Source: Clostridiales bacterium (GTDB lineage: Bacteria; Bacillota; Clostridia; Oscillospirales; Oscillospiraceae). Taken from it: 63,759 bases of DNA. The stretch spans positions 94,101 through 157,859 of the forward strand of contig JAAVHV010000009.1 of assembly GCA_014799505.1 (NCBI GenBank). The letters are read 5' to 3'. Each line of letters starts with the position of its first letter. Within the stretch, counting starts at the first letter, position 1. The notes beneath the pieces are model-generated. The model saw only the letters and a program-made list of their open reading frames with translations, did no database searches and was not told the origin of the DNA. A program made the translations under genes and the position numbers. Below, one piece after another: positions 32,837 to 36,612 of the stretch.

Positions 32837-34030
32837 ATGAATGTAAAGACTATGCTGGCCGCCCTGCGGGGCGTGACCGCTTACAAGGACATACTTACCC
32901 AGCCGGTGATGGAGCGGGCGCTGTCCCTGCTGGCCTGCGCCGCCCATGGGGACGGCCAGGGCGGGCTGGAGGCGTACACCGGCCTGTTCTATCAGCTCCG
33001 GGTGGAGGGACAGCCCGGTCTGGGCCACTGGCTGGGGGAGGCCCTGCGGTGGTCGGAGGGGCCCTATCCCCTGCTGGCCCAGCGGGGGGACCGGGACCCG
33101 GCGCTGGAGCAGGCGGCCAAGCTGGACATCTCCGCCTTCGAGCTGCTGGCCAACGTGGACTGCGACAGGTGGCTGGCCCACCTGGGGAAGCTGCTGGACA
33201 GCGACTACCAGGGGGTATTGACCTCCCTGCCCCGGTGGCAGCGGGGGGTGCCCTTCTCCTTTGAGCAGCTCACCGCCGCCTATCAAAAGGAGGGCGCGGG
33301 GCTGTTCGCCCGGTACCGGGCCTTCGTGTGGGACAGCGGCGAGCTGATCCCGGTGGCCCACCCGGACTGCCCCACCGACCACCAGCTGCTGGGCTACGAC
33401 GAACAGCGGGCCGAGGTAGTGCGCAACACCCGCCTGCTCATGGAGGGGCGGTATGTGAACAATGTCCTCCTCTACGGCGAGAGCGGTACGGGCAAATCGG
33501 CCACAGTGAAAAACCTGCTCACCCTGCCCGGAATGGAGGAGCTGCGGCTCATCGAGGCGGATAAGGAGAATCTGGGCGGCCTGCCCGCCCTCATCCGCAA
33601 GCTGGACGGGCGGCGGCAGAAGTTCATCGTGTTCATCGACGATTTGACCTTTGACCGGGACGACCCCACCTACTCCGTCCTGAAAACCATCCTGGAGGGC
33701 GGCGTGGAGCGCCGGCCCCAGAACGTGGCGGTGTACGCCACCTCCAACCGCCGCCACCTGGTGCGCCAGACCATCTCCGAGCGGGCCGGGGACGAGATGG
33801 ACCGTTCCGAGACCATCCGGGAAAAGACCTCGCTGGCCGACCGCTTCGGGGTGCGGGTGCTGTTCCAGAGGCTGAACAAGACGGAATTTTTGGCGTTGGT
33901 CGATATGCTGGCCGATCAGAACGGAGTGGAGCTTCCCCGGGAAGAGCTCCACCGCCAGGCGGTGGCCTGGGAGCGGTTCCACGGGGCACAGACCCCGCGC
34001 ACCGCGTTACAATTTATCCTGTCGCTGTAA
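32837..34030 (+). CDS. DUF815 AAA+ ATPase
   Basis: A 397-residue protein. The C-terminal half is a P-loop ATPase: Walker A LLYGESGTGKSATVKNLL near residue 215-232, Walker B KFIVFIDDLTFDRDDPTY, and an Arg-rich ATSNRRHLV followed by the lid (FQRLNKTEFLALV). The first 180 residues form a helical domain specific to the family. DUF815 ATPases are widespread in bacteria without a fixed role. ATG at 32837 follows GAGGTG at six bases. The gene stands alone with its own promoter. Confidence 0.88.
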   Translation: MNVKTMLAALRGVTAYKDILTQPVMERALSLLACAAHGDGQGGLEAYTGLFYQLRVEGQPGLGHWLGEALRWSEGPYPLLAQRGDRDPALEQAAKLDISAFELLANVDCDRWLAHLGKLLDSDYQGVLTSLPRWQRGVPFSFEQLTAAYQKEGAGLFARYRAFVWDSGELIPVAHPDCPTDHQLLGYDEQRAEVVRNTRLLMEGRYVNNVLLYGESGTGKSATVKNLLTLPGMEELRLIEADKENLGGLPALIRKLDGRRQKFIVFIDDLTFDRDDPTYSVLKTILEGGVERRPQNVAVYATSNRRHLVRQTISERAGDEMDRSETIREKTSLADRFGVRVLFQRLNKTEFLALVDMLADQNGVELPREELHRQAVAWERFHGAQTPRTALQFILSL

Positions 34031-34056
34031 AAAAGCGTGGGAAATATAAAAAGCAT

Positions 34057-34175
34057 AGGAGAAGTGTTTTATGAAGATGATGTTTGTCTCGGTGACCGTG
34101 CGCTGACCGGGAGGTTTGCGTCACAATTAACTCACCCAAACCTCCCAAAAGAATCACATCTTTTAGGAGGTTTTT
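34057..34175 (+). promoter_or_regulatory. Leader-peptide attenuator upstream of the RNHCP gene
   Basis: Three segments can pair in two exclusive ways. Segment 1 (34109-34118, GGGAGGTTTG) pairs perfectly over 10 bp with segment 2 (34137-34146). Alternatively, 34138-34151 pairs with 34160-34173 (13 of 14 bp, 8-base loop). This second hairpin contains the AGGAGG ribosome site and is followed by T5, so it can act as an intrinsic terminator, a ribosome-site lock, or both. Segment 1 starts three bases after the stop of a translated 11-codon leader. Confidence 0.85.
34071..34106 (+). CDS. Leader peptide MKMMFVSVTVR
   Basis: An 11-codon open frame ending in TGA at 34104-34106, with AGGAGA eight bases upstream of its ATG. 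Its stop lies directly before segment 1 of the attenuator, so a ribosome at the stop would cover that segment. The peptide is hydrophobic and ends Val-Thr-Val-Arg; short leaders of this sort precede antibiotic-inducible genes (erm, ABC-F) where drug-stalled ribosomes switch the RNA fold. Function as a regulatory uORF is inferred. Confidence 0.75.
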   Translation: MKMMFVSVTVR

Positions 34176-34178
34176 CCC

Positions 34179-34583
34179 TTGAACAGAGAAAACAAGCGCA
34201 AGCAGTACGAAAAAGGCTACTACAAGACCCATCCCTGCCATGACAGCTTCACCTGCAAGGTGTGCGGCTGGCTGGTGACCCCGGCGGGCGCCGGGAGCGA
34301 CCACCGCAACCACTGCCCCAACTGCCTGTCCAGCCTCCATGTGGACATCGAGCCCGGTGACCGGGAGGCGGACTGCGGCGGCATCATGGAGCCCATCTCC
34401 GTGTGGGTGCGGAAAAACGGCGAGTGGGCGGTCATCCACCGCTGCCGGCGGTGCGGGGCGCTGTCGTCCAACCGGGTGGCGGCGGACGACGACCCCATGA
34501 AGCTGATGTCCATCGCTATGAAGCCGGTGGCCTTCCCACCCTTCCCCTTAGAGCGGCTGAAGGATCTGGCGGGAGACGCGTAA
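34179..34583 (+). CDS. RNHCP domain protein
   Basis: A 134-residue zinc-ribbon-like protein. The family-naming motif is present as DHRNHCPNCL near residues 41-50, with partners FTCKVCGW (25-32) and HRCRRCGALSSNR (87-99), giving two CxxC pairs plus CPNC. The role of RNHCP proteins is not settled. It starts at TTG 34179 with AGGAGG eight bases upstream; that ribosome site is inside the attenuator hairpin. The regulated context hints at a function tied to translation stress (inference). Confidence 0.88.
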   Translation: MNRENKRKQYEKGYYKTHPCHDSFTCKVCGWLVTPAGAGSDHRNHCPNCLSSLHVDIEPGDREADCGGIMEPISVWVRKNGEWAVIHRCRRCGALSSNRVAADDDPMKLMSIAMKPVAFPPFPLERLKDLAGDA

Positions 34584-34594
34584 CACACAAAGAA

Positions 34595-34627
34595 GCCCCC
34601 GCTGTTTCTCCATGAAACAGCGGGGGC
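34595..34627. terminator. Terminator between RNHCP gene and SLH gene
   Basis: A 14-bp perfect stem (GCCCCCGCTGTTTC and complement) and 5-base loop, shared by two convergent genes. T tracts are weak on both sides. Confidence 0.75.
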
Positions 34628-34637
34628 AAAACTATGC

Positions 34638-35729
34638 TCAGTTGTTATAGGCCCGGTAGAGGAACGCCGCGATCTCGCCGCGGGTGCACACCCGGTCGGG
34701 GGCAAAGGTGTTGTCGCCGTCGCCGGATCCGGTGGTGACGCCCTTCTCCAACGCCCAGGATACCGCGTCGGCATAGGGGGCGTCGGCGTCCACGTCGGAG
34801 AAGCTGGCCGCCTCCGCGGCCTCGGTCTCACCCAGGGCCTTCCAGATATACCACACCGCCTGGGAGCGGGTGCAGGGGGCGTCCGGGTCAAAAGAATCGT
34901 CGATCAGCCCTTTTTCGTAGGCCCAGTTGACGGCATCCTGATAGTAGGACGCCACGGTAAAGGGGGCCTCGGCGGCGGCATCCGGCTCATCCGCCGCCCG
35001 CCACAGGAAGGTCAGGATCTGGGTGTTGGGGCACTGAATGCCGGGGGCAAAGGTGGCGGAGCCGCCGTAGCCGTTGGTGATCCCCTTCTCCACCGCCCAC
35101 TGGGCCTCATTGGCGCACCAGGCGGGTGTGTCGGTGAAGGGGGGGACGGGGATCTGGTCAACGAACCAGAGCTGGACAAAGGTGTCGCCCATCTCCAACG
35201 TCAGCATATTAAACTCTTCCGGGATGTACTCTTCAAAATCGGCCTTCGTCTGGACGTAGTCTCCCGGAGCGTCTACAGTGAACAACCGGCTCTTATCCTC
35301 GACCACTTCCGTTTTCCAGAAGTGCTCGCCATCGCTGCTGCGCCGCTGGTAATACTCGGCGTTCCACCCATGGTAATAGACAACGTCCCCCTTGGCCATA
35401 CGAAAGGTGATGGAGGCATCGGGGGGAAGGAAAAAGCACCAGAAGGTGCGGATCCCCACAAATTCGTTCTCCGGGGTGGAGGGGTCTTCGTTCCACCAGA
35501 GCATCTGGGTGCCCAGGGCATAGTTGAAGTCATTCCCCGGCTCCGTGGTCTCCCCCTCCGCTCTGTAAAAATCCCCTAAACTGTCATAGTAGCTTGTGGT
35601 GAGCACCTCGCTGAAGGTCATGCCGCCCACGGTGACGGACTCCTGCGTCCCGGAGGCAAAGGTAGGCGCCGGGAGCAGGGCCAGGCACAGGGCCAGCGCA
35701 AGGAACAATGCCGGAAGTCGTTTTTTCAT
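34638..35729 (-). CDS. Secreted protein with three S-layer homology repeats
   Basis: A 363-residue exported protein. The signal peptide is MKKRLPALFLALALCLALLP with cleavage near TFASG. Residues 25-190 form an unidentified beta-rich domain. Three SLH repeats end the protein, about residues 195-245, 250-300 and 305-363, with AVEKGITNGYGG, DPDAPCTRSQAVWYIW and DRVCTRGEIAAFLYRA. SLH repeats bind pyruvylated wall polysaccharide. The start at 35729 is fixed by the signal peptide and a GGAGAG site. Ligand or enzyme role of the N-terminal domain is unknown. Confidence 0.9.
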   Translation of the reverse strand: MKKRLPALFLALALCLALLPAPTFASGTQESVTVGGMTFSEVLTTSYYDSLGDFYRAEGETTEPGNDFNYALGTQMLWWNEDPSTPENEFVGIRTFWCFFLPPDASITFRMAKGDVVYYHGWNAEYYQRRSSDGEHFWKTEVVEDKSRLFTVDAPGDYVQTKADFEEYIPEEFNMLTLEMGDTFVQLWFVDQIPVPPFTDTPAWCANEAQWAVEKGITNGYGGSATFAPGIQCPNTQILTFLWRAADEPDAAAEAPFTVASYYQDAVNWAYEKGLIDDSFDPDAPCTRSQAVWYIWKALGETEAAEAASFSDVDADAPYADAVSWALEKGVTTGSGDGDNTFAPDRVCTRGEIAAFLYRAYNN

Positions 35730-35841
35730 GTTCGTCTCTCCTTCTGCAAAATTGTTTGGGTACAGTGCCTTTATTTTACACCATTTGCGTGAGAGGCGCA
35801 AGCTGTTTTCGCGATAACATAGATTTGCGGGCGAGTCCCTT

Positions 35842-36612
35842 CTATGTCTCCTGGTCGGCCTCGTGATCCGCCCCGTACCGCTTGATGCCGTGGCTGTTCT
35901 CCACCGGGCCCCACTCGGGCAGGGGCAGGCGCTGCATGGCCCCGAATACATAGTCCTTCAGCTTGGGGTAGTCCTGGGACAGGCGGGCGATCAGCTCCTT
36001 CACCTCCTGCCGCCGGGTGTTGCCGTCGGCGGGACAGGGGTTGTAGACCACGGGCAGATGATAGCGCGCGGCGGCGTTGCGCAGCGTCCCCTCCCCACAA
36101 TAGAGAAGCGGGCGGATCTGGGTGATGCCCGTGCGATCCAGGTAGGTTACCGGCTGGAAGCAGGACAGACGGCCCTCATAGAACAGGGACAGGAAAAAGG
36201 TCTCCACCGCGTCGTCGAAGTGGTGGCCCAAGGCCACCTTATTGATACCCAGTTCCTTGAGGGCGTTGTGCATGGCTCCACGGCGCATTTTCGCGCACAT
36301 GGAGCAGGGGTTCTTCTCATGGCGCAGGTCGAAGATGATGCGGAAAATCTCCGTCTGAATCAGGTGGTACTCCACCCCCAGGTCTTGACACAGCGCCGCC
36401 ACCGGGGCGAAGTCCATCTCCTCGGGGCCGGGGTGCACCGTGATGGCGTGAAGCTCAAAGGGCGCGGGGTAGAACTCCCGCAGCTTGGCCATGGCGTACA
36501 GCAGCGCCAGCGAGTCCTTGCCGCCGGATACACCCACGGCGATCTTGTCGCCGGACTGAATCATGTTGTAGTCCTCAACGCAGCGGCGCATATGGGATAA
36601 AATCAGCCGCAT
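35842..36612 (-). CDS. TtcA-like tRNA thiolation / PP-loop protein
   Basis: A 256-residue ATP pyrophosphatase. The PP-loop is VGVSGGKDSLALL near residues 27-39. The conserved CSMCAKMRRG (about 102-111), LGHHFDDAVETFFL and a later Cys (NPCPADG) match the TtcA group, which uses a 4Fe-4S cluster to make 2-thiocytidine in tRNA. Similar PP-loop proteins with other sulfur-transfer targets exist in clostridia, so tRNA C32 is not certain. It is alone on the minus strand, facing the rplM promoter. Confidence 0.88.
   Translation of the reverse strand: MRLILSHMRRCVEDYNMIQSGDKIAVGVSGGKDSLALLYAMAKLREFYPAPFELHAITVHPGPEEMDFAPVAALCQDLGVEYHLIQTEIFRIIFDLRHEKNPCSMCAKMRRGAMHNALKELGINKVALGHHFDDAVETFFLSLFYEGRLSCFQPVTYLDRTGITQIRPLLYCGEGTLRNAAARYHLPVVYNPCPADGNTRRQEVKELIARLSQDYPKLKDYVFGAMQRLPLPEWGPVENSHGIKRYGADHEADQET

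Follow-up and report, generated by a model that had tools for sequence, protein, structure and literature searches.

A candidate ribosome-sensing attenuator common to RNHCP, RsgA-type GTPase and GNAT acetyltransferase genes in Clostridia

An RNHCP-domain gene in a Clostridiales contig is preceded by a short leader ORF and by RNA segments that can pair in alternative ways, one of which buries the Shine-Dalgarno sequence (SD) of the gene. The locus lies in a stretch of 63,759 nucleotides (hereafter, the window) and was compared with leaders from other genomes. We consider it likely, with about three parts in four of our confidence, that the whole is best explained as a four-segment, ribosome-sensing translational attenuator common to genes for RNHCP, RsgA-type GTPases and GNAT acetyltransferases, with RNHCP induced by ribosome stalling and acting on ribosomes. 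Computation gave the leader's anatomy, covariation in each of its three helices, an ORF bearing a motif, three kinds of target and the RNHCP-RsgA fusions and operons; from these we infer translation of the leader, ribosome arrest on it, the inducer and the function of RNHCP.

Results

A leader ORF and alternative hairpins precede the RNHCP gene

The features of the locus are collected in Table 1. The leader was read from the sequence as an ATG at 34071, 11 codons in all and a TGA at 34104-34106. An initial annotation of this DNA had described the 11 codons and the leader's own SD correctly and had put segment 1 three bases beyond the leader; segment 1 lies two bases past the stop codon. The two hairpins described there, one of 10 perfect base pairs and one pairing 13 of 14, were recovered as described. 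Segments 1 and 2 (helix 1:2) form 10/10 pairs, and the arms of the 2:3 hairpin (34138-34151 with 34160-34173) form 13/14, C34146 and A34165 being left unpaired. When compared with dinucleotide shuffles, neither the 1:2 region (34103-34150, z -4.3) nor the 2:3 region (34126-34180, z -5.7) was equalled in stability by any of 200 shuffles, and the two helices have energies of -17.1 and -16.1 kcal/mol in the window, respectively. A third helix, termed hairpin A, is present in the minimum-energy fold of 34036-34178.

The RNHCP ORF belongs to the RNHCP domain family, with 135.9 bits against PF12647 at a cut-off of 24. Among its Cys/His positions, 13/14 hold the same residue in at least 46/47 aligned relatives, and 11 do so in 47/47; placement of the fold was attempted and none was obtained. 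The upstream neighbour is a DUF815 ATPase gene (PF05673; 32804-34030, plus strand), and the same sequence precedes the leader in the relatives L031 to L033. Downstream, a strong 14-bp terminator-like hairpin on the minus strand (34595-34627) lies between the RNHCP gene and a convergent minus-strand ORF (34638-35951).

Table 1. Coordinates of the leader, the alternative helices and the RNHCP gene in the window.
Feature	Position	Strand	Basis
Leader-ORF SD, AGGAG	34057-34061	+	sequence
Leader ORF, MKMMFVSVTVR-stop, class I (stop directly before segment 1)	34071-34106	+	sequence
Leader codon 8, last predicted ON codon (P site)	34092-34094	+	predicted, assumed +17 footprint
Leader codon 10, Val, conserved motif position	34098-34100	+	motif counts over leaders
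Hairpin A (segment 0 paired to segment 1 and its downstream loop)	34091-34136	+	minimum-energy fold, covariation
Hairpin A, outer arms	34091-34095/34132-34136	+	
Hairpin A, middle arms, bulged	34098-34103/34118-34124	+	
Hairpin A, inner arms	34105-34108/34113-34116	+	
Hairpin A, GNRA-type loop GGGA	34109-34112	+	
Segment 1, GGGAGGTTTG	34109-34118	+	sequence, pair counts
Segment 2, CAAACCTCCC, ON-fold partner of segment 1	34137-34146	+	sequence, covariation
2:3 hairpin (OFF), buries RNHCP SD	34138-34173	+	fold, covariation
RNHCP SD, AGGAGG, within segment 3	34165-34170	+	sequence
T5 run after AGGAGG, window-specific (1/56 leaders)	34171-34175	+	leader comparison
RNHCP-domain protein, 134 aa, TTG start 34179	34179-34583	+	PF12647

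The same leader precedes RNHCP, RsgA and GNAT genes

RNHCP genes were found in 50/250 genomes of the window's family and in 41/391 genomes of its class (38 above the cut-off); the four other listed genomes of the same genus are without one, and close relatives from another collection carry it (L031-L034). A search for the leader with its paired segments before other RNHCP genes, as the initial annotation had suggested, showed that the module recurs at 57/110 best-scoring RNHCP loci (52/101 distinct genes), these loci being the 30 best of one search and the 80 best of 561 of another rather than a random sample. Because many matches come from related species (e.g. L149-L154), locus counts are not independent. 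At the remaining 53/110 best-scoring loci the searches found no leader, and it was absent from 15/15 lower-scoring loci with short, distant RNHCP genes (L215-L229). RNHCP homologues that lack the leader and its compensatory pairs, which had been named as evidence against the switch, therefore exist in number, whereas loci that do carry the leader show covariation of its pairs. The class sample includes 15 RNHCP genes that score over 120 bits, of which 10 carry the leader, three are RsgA fusions and two have neither feature. A short RNHCP subfamily that lacks the switch is seen in small-genome Clostridia (L215-L227).

A MarR-type gene lies directly upstream at 24/110 RNHCP loci, with no overlap with the leader group (L025, a partial match, was counted under 'other' in this upstream-context count), and leaderless RNHCP genes stand directly behind such a regulator at L012, L019, L050, L057, L060-L062 and others. 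An upstream MarR-type regulator offers RNHCP a second route of regulation.

R1, a covariance model trained on nothing but 47 RNHCP leaders, gave matches in 36 of the 391 class genomes at E <= 0.01, and these also precede genes for an RsgA-like GTPase (~360 aa) and a GNAT acetyltransferase (~208 aa). A second model, R2, which combines RNHCP leaders with RsgA and GNAT leaders, gave matches in 27/67 genomes of another order (E <= 0.003) and in 25/398 genomes of the phylum (E <= 0.001); for both models E-values are per genome, weak matches include clear chance matches and related species are included. When distinct matches at E <= 2e-5 were pooled (22 + 20 + 17), 58/59 were found to precede an RNHCP (18), RsgA (23) or GNAT (17) gene, the target families being read from translations and then checked by tblastn; the sole exception is L189. 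Among the pooled loci, L121 is partly masked, L131 and L170 have broken GNAT genes and L125 lies at a contig end.

Two leader-RsgA proteins, tested against TIGR00157, scored 145 and 165.2 bits at a cut-off of 100, and a second strong RsgA match was present in 9/9 checked genomes with a leader-RsgA gene, which marks the leader-bearing copy as an extra paralog. The window's genome (65% complete) has one strong rsgA match. Judged by sequence, the leader-controlled GNAT bears only a faint resemblance to the Eis acetyltransferase, with 20.1 bits against a cut-off of 576 in one of two GNATs and no match in the other. In named species, the GNAT version is found on Pusillibacter faecalis pMM59_01 and Selenomonas ruminantium pSRC1. 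Of 17 GNAT genes at least 64% identical to the query (its own locus included), five have a model match of at least 50 bits.

Several relatives of this GNAT share a frame with other domains. In a relative with 70% identity (L247:1501-2754, minus strand), the fused domain is a Vat-like acetyltransferase of the streptogramin/chloramphenicol type (Vat_ABCDEFH, 260.3 bits, under the cut-off of 300); others are joined to PAP2 (L240), to an alpha/beta hydrolase (L259) or to a GNAT and a hydrolase-like stretch (L248), and in L262 a GNAT-like stretch was noted by eye. Separately, at L190 and L194 (G708:C1, G751:C27) an SD-burying hairpin resembling 2:3, probably convergent and with a weak model match, lies upstream of genes that we take to be chloramphenicol-acetyltransferase-like.

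Leader ORFs recur and all three helices covary

The collected loci yielded 112 leaders with 100 distinct peptides, a short ORF with its own SD lying directly upstream of the target as attenuation demands at the level of sequence. Leaders with duplicate peptides were dropped, and 99 were analysed; L048, where the frame was misread and an in-frame leader is visible, was left out of the folding, motif and arm-swap counts, and the L039 leader was read from an inner ATG. An SD-like match of at least four bases precedes 97/100 listed leaders, a count made by a leader-choosing script that favoured ORFs with such a match. Two classes could be distinguished: in class I (n = 59; 44 RNHCP, 15 GNAT) the stop codon lies directly before segment 1, and in class II (n = 40; 23 RsgA, 17 RNHCP) segment 1 is read through, often as REVC.

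In an arm-swap test, native arms were compared with arms exchanged within a target family (99 leaders, 3000 permutations). All three helices stood out, with z of -12.4 for hairpin A, -9.5 for helix 1:2 and -6.4 for helix 2:3 (0/3000 in each case), while controls with a reversed 3' arm gave -2.7, -0.4 and +1.5, respectively, the hairpin A control being itself mildly significant (9/3000). By target family, hairpin A gave -10.8 for RNHCP, -5.6 for GNAT and -3.2 for RsgA, and for 44 non-redundant RNHCP leaders it gave -8.3 (reversed-arm control -2.9).

Hairpin A keeps its pairs across relatives through changes on both sides. Over 47 aligned sequences, the putative OFF structure (hairpin A with 2:3) had 94.6% of cells paired versus 90.6% after shuffling, with both sides changed in 36 cells versus 15.3, and the putative ON helix (1:2) had 92.8% versus 89.7%, with 10 both-sided changes versus 3.0; slid alignments, used as a control, had 26-66% of cells paired. 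Upon adding divergent members, the OFF structure stood (63 both-sided changes versus 23.3 shuffled) and the ON helix became less clear (10 versus 5.0, with 6/500 shuffles as high). Taken together, all three helices (A, 1:2 and 2:3) covary across relatives, which bears out the mutually exclusive 1:2 and 2:3 pairings first proposed from the window as a leader-peptide attenuator. Mutually exclusive helices with compensatory changes, one of them burying the target SD, are the mark of a translational attenuator.

The position of the ribosome is predicted to set access to the target SD

A ribosome was assumed to cover the mRNA to base +17 from the P-site codon. With this modelled footprint, the RNA downstream of the ribosome was folded codon by codon and the openness of the target SD was determined. 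In the window, predicted openness was 0.12 without a ribosome, 0.00 with a ribosome at codons 1-5, rose to 0.21-0.25 at codons 6-8 and fell back to 0.00 at codon 9 and all later ones. Across leaders, the mean was 0.25 without a ribosome and about 0.17 to 0.4 at the first codons, reached 0.46 to 0.59 for P sites 16 to 23 bases ahead of segment 1 (at positions covered by at least 40 leaders), and was at most 0.09 at the codons directly after that stretch. Closure of the SD at the codon after the boundary was predicted in 96/99 leaders, and the SD was more open at the boundary than ribosome-free in 78/99 (53/61 RNHCP, 15/15 GNAT, 10/23 RsgA). When the P site held the final sense codon, mean openness was 0.02 in class I (59 leaders) and 0.14 in class II (above 0.3 in 9/40).

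We propose that the four segments form two states, hairpin A together with 2:3 being OFF and 1:2 being ON. On a leader free of ribosomes, the last codons and the stop codon would pair with segment 1 in hairpin A, and 2:3 would bury the RNHCP SD (OFF); a ribosome at the leader stop codon would mask segment 1 (OFF). A ribosome stalled with its P site at about codons 5-8 would open hairpin A and leave segment 1 free, which would then pair with segment 2 and release the RNHCP SD. On the modelled openness by codon, such a stall should therefore turn the gene on. Completion of the leader would give the OFF state in class I and in most of class II, and without initiation most RNHCP and GNAT genes would be OFF, whereas most RsgA leaders are not predicted to be less open in that state than at the boundary.

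The initial annotation had assigned OFF to a completed leader and ON to a ribosome that stalls early, and the model for the window agrees on both counts, the latter for stalls in mid-leader. It had also supposed that poor initiation would free segment 1; here the prediction is the reverse, as hairpin A holds segment 1 and an untranslated leader should for that reason be mostly OFF. The change predicted for the window is small (0.12 to 0.25) because the energies of 1:2 and 2:3 are nearly equal, so that only a kinetic switch would work there, one in which the order of transcription would give 1:2 the advantage over 2:3.

A conserved motif lies at the ON/OFF boundary

A Val codon stands two codons past the boundary codon in 84/99 leaders (GTG 42, GTA 32, GTT 6, GTC 4), a count that is somewhat inflated because the leader-choosing script favoured a loose V/A/G-like ending among several candidate ORFs. 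Its position is codon 8-11 in 97/99 leaders and codon 10 in 63/99. The boundary codon itself is Glu or Asp in 67/99 leaders, including 38/38 GNAT and RsgA leaders, and is Val in the window. We consider [D/E]-x-V, near codons 8-10 and on the ON/OFF boundary, to be probably an arrest signal; the motif is partly base-paired, so that amino-acid and RNA constraints overlap in it.

A general sensor of translation speed would need no specific arrest peptide: any slowdown over codons 5-8, from amino-acid shortage or several drug classes, would turn the gene on, as in toiL of E. coli, where drugs of at least five classes elicit a response (PMC12121999, in part). The N-terminal parts of the leaders vary freely and the predicted ON window spans several codons, both of which fit such a sensor, but the frequent Val and the acidic boundary codon suggest a specific motif, and we regard the sensor as possible and rather unlikely.

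The T5 run directly after a stable hairpin in the window could instead make 2:3 an intrinsic terminator that is read through upon stalling, and HflXr of Listeria does work by premature termination (PMC6310831, in part). The initial annotation was right that 2:3 both carries a T5 tail and hides AGGAGG. As a family trait, however, termination does not hold: a T-run of at least three directly after the SD was found in 1/56 leaders, namely the window's own (57 leaders, one without an SD match), and not family-wide after the OFF hairpin. At that site L031 to L034, the closest relatives, carry an A ahead of 3-5 T, with no T-run directly after GGAGG, and the 2:3 hairpin was absent from the terminators listed by a scan of the window. 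The T-run count argues that the family trait is the buried SD and not a terminator, which leaves transcription attenuation with roughly one chance in eight.

A riboswitch that binds a ligand, or a leader that binds a protein, with the short ORF a mere bystander, is improbable to a greater degree. Most members do have a conserved CCGGGAGG core with a GNRA-type loop, but no Rfam family matched (six matches in window positions 33900-34700 at E <= 5, none at gathering score; tRNA only at five loci with GNAT, RsgA or RNHCP leaders), the motif Val codon varies synonymously, and the 40 class II leaders that read through segment 1 all stop before a segment-2-like match, as defined by a loose pattern. 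Amino-acid sensing of the trp/his type, for which a leader peptide and alternative hairpins are present, is very improbable, since the 100 listed leaders show no common single-residue run or repeated codons and the targets are not biosynthetic genes.

RNHCP and RsgA are fused or adjoining

L017, L207, L209 and L232 each encode an RsgA-like GTPase joined to an RNHCP domain in a single frame (471-482 codons). L208, of 446 codons, represents a second fusion, in which the RsgA is more remote (25% identity); Pfam supports the fusions at L207, L208 and L209. The in-frame extension at L045 was considered as an RsgA fusion and rejected, as no RsgA was found there in the neighbour scan. This same-strand scan covered 263 loci, which are short, so that farther neighbours would be missed. 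The order leader-RNHCP-RsgA was found on one strand at eight loci (L127, L149-L154, L157), and a Vibrio coralliilyticus plasmid (L201) has the order TetR, RNHCP, rsgA, with RNHCP and rsgA overlapping. Other arrangements are leader-RNHCP-GNAT (L014), a leader match of 29 bits followed by RsgA and then GNAT (L251), and GNAT, RsgA and then leader-RNHCP (L108).

A Streptomyces plasmid (L230:2524-4404) carries a pair of adjacent RNHCP genes and, after them, a gene for an FBP treble-clef zinc finger (PF16571); a short aminoglycoside phosphotransferase is annotated on the opposite strand. Proteins of the FBP type target EF-G at the ribosome.

A switch held in common with an RsgA paralog, along with the RNHCP-RsgA fusions and operons, ties RNHCP to ribosome protection or rescue. 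As the switch also serves an RsgA-like GTPase and a GNAT, RNHCP is probably induced by inhibitor-jammed ribosomes, in line with the ribosome-targeting stress first suggested from the leader. RNHCP probably works at the small subunit, alongside RsgA-type GTPases, to protect or rescue ribosomes; with its partner it would clear or recycle inhibitor-jammed small subunits. The portable, stall-sensing attenuator would have been placed before at least three unrelated Clostridia genes (RNHCP, RsgA, GNAT), and since the targets adjoin or fuse in many combinations, they suggest a dispersed ribosome-defence regulon held together by a copied cis element with no shared regulator. That RNHCP is a new ribosome-protection or rescue class, a zinc-ribbon partner of dedicated RsgA-type GTPases in such a Clostridia regulon united by the attenuator, is in our judgement an even bet, raised from slightly below even by the leader-RNHCP-RsgA operons.

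Discussion

Attenuators driven by ribosome arrest are an already known kind; what is new, as far as our searches reach, is the attenuator family itself, the set of three targets and the connection between RNHCP and RsgA-type GTPases. Our literature search found no biological paper using the word RNHCP and no description of an attenuator in RNHCP leaders. A switch in common with an RsgA paralog, together with the fusions and operons, gives the RNHCP family a concrete, testable role at the ribosome and suggests undescribed inducible ribosome-defence genes in Clostridia. One attenuator module is reused before unrelated genes, and with its covariance model other genes of ribosome defence can be sought.

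The comparisons that follow draw on parts of the cited papers. Attenuation of the ermC/ermB type (PMC8274638, PMC5118997, and in part general background) likewise uses a short leader with its own SD, on which a stalled ribosome rearranges hairpins and frees the target SD. Here, in contrast, one attenuator is common to three unrelated targets, the motif is [D/E]-x-V, and the class I leader stop codon sits inside the OFF helix. HflXr of Listeria (lmo0762; PMC6310831) is similar in that a small ORF attenuates a homolog of a ribosome-associated GTPase, one that confers drug resistance. It belongs to the HflX family and uses transcription termination with a 14-aa leader bearing an RLR motif, whereas the family described here involves RsgA-type GTPases and RNHCP, SD burial and [D/E]-x-V. 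The uORFC-6-1 motif before hflX (PMC8632094) is, like ours, a uORF candidate from comparative genomics upstream of a ribosome-rescue gene; it concerns hflX in Bacillales, and neither rsgA nor an acetyltransferase appears in the main text of that paper.

In toiL-topAI-yjhQ of E. coli, which responds to ribosome inhibitors, stalled uORF ribosomes also open a hidden ribosome-binding site, but there the uORF itself pairs with the ribosome-binding site of the target, which is a toxin-antitoxin system (PMC12121999). Finally, the WblC/WhiB7 regulon of Streptomyces (PMC7157823) resembles the present set in that its drug-induced genes include eis-type GNATs, and RsgA/EngC (SCO6149, SCO5211) is among its paralog pairs with differing WblC-related profiles; our literature search for the word RNHCP did not return that paper. 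That regulon is governed by one transcription factor in trans, whereas the genes described here would be joined by a copied attenuator in cis.
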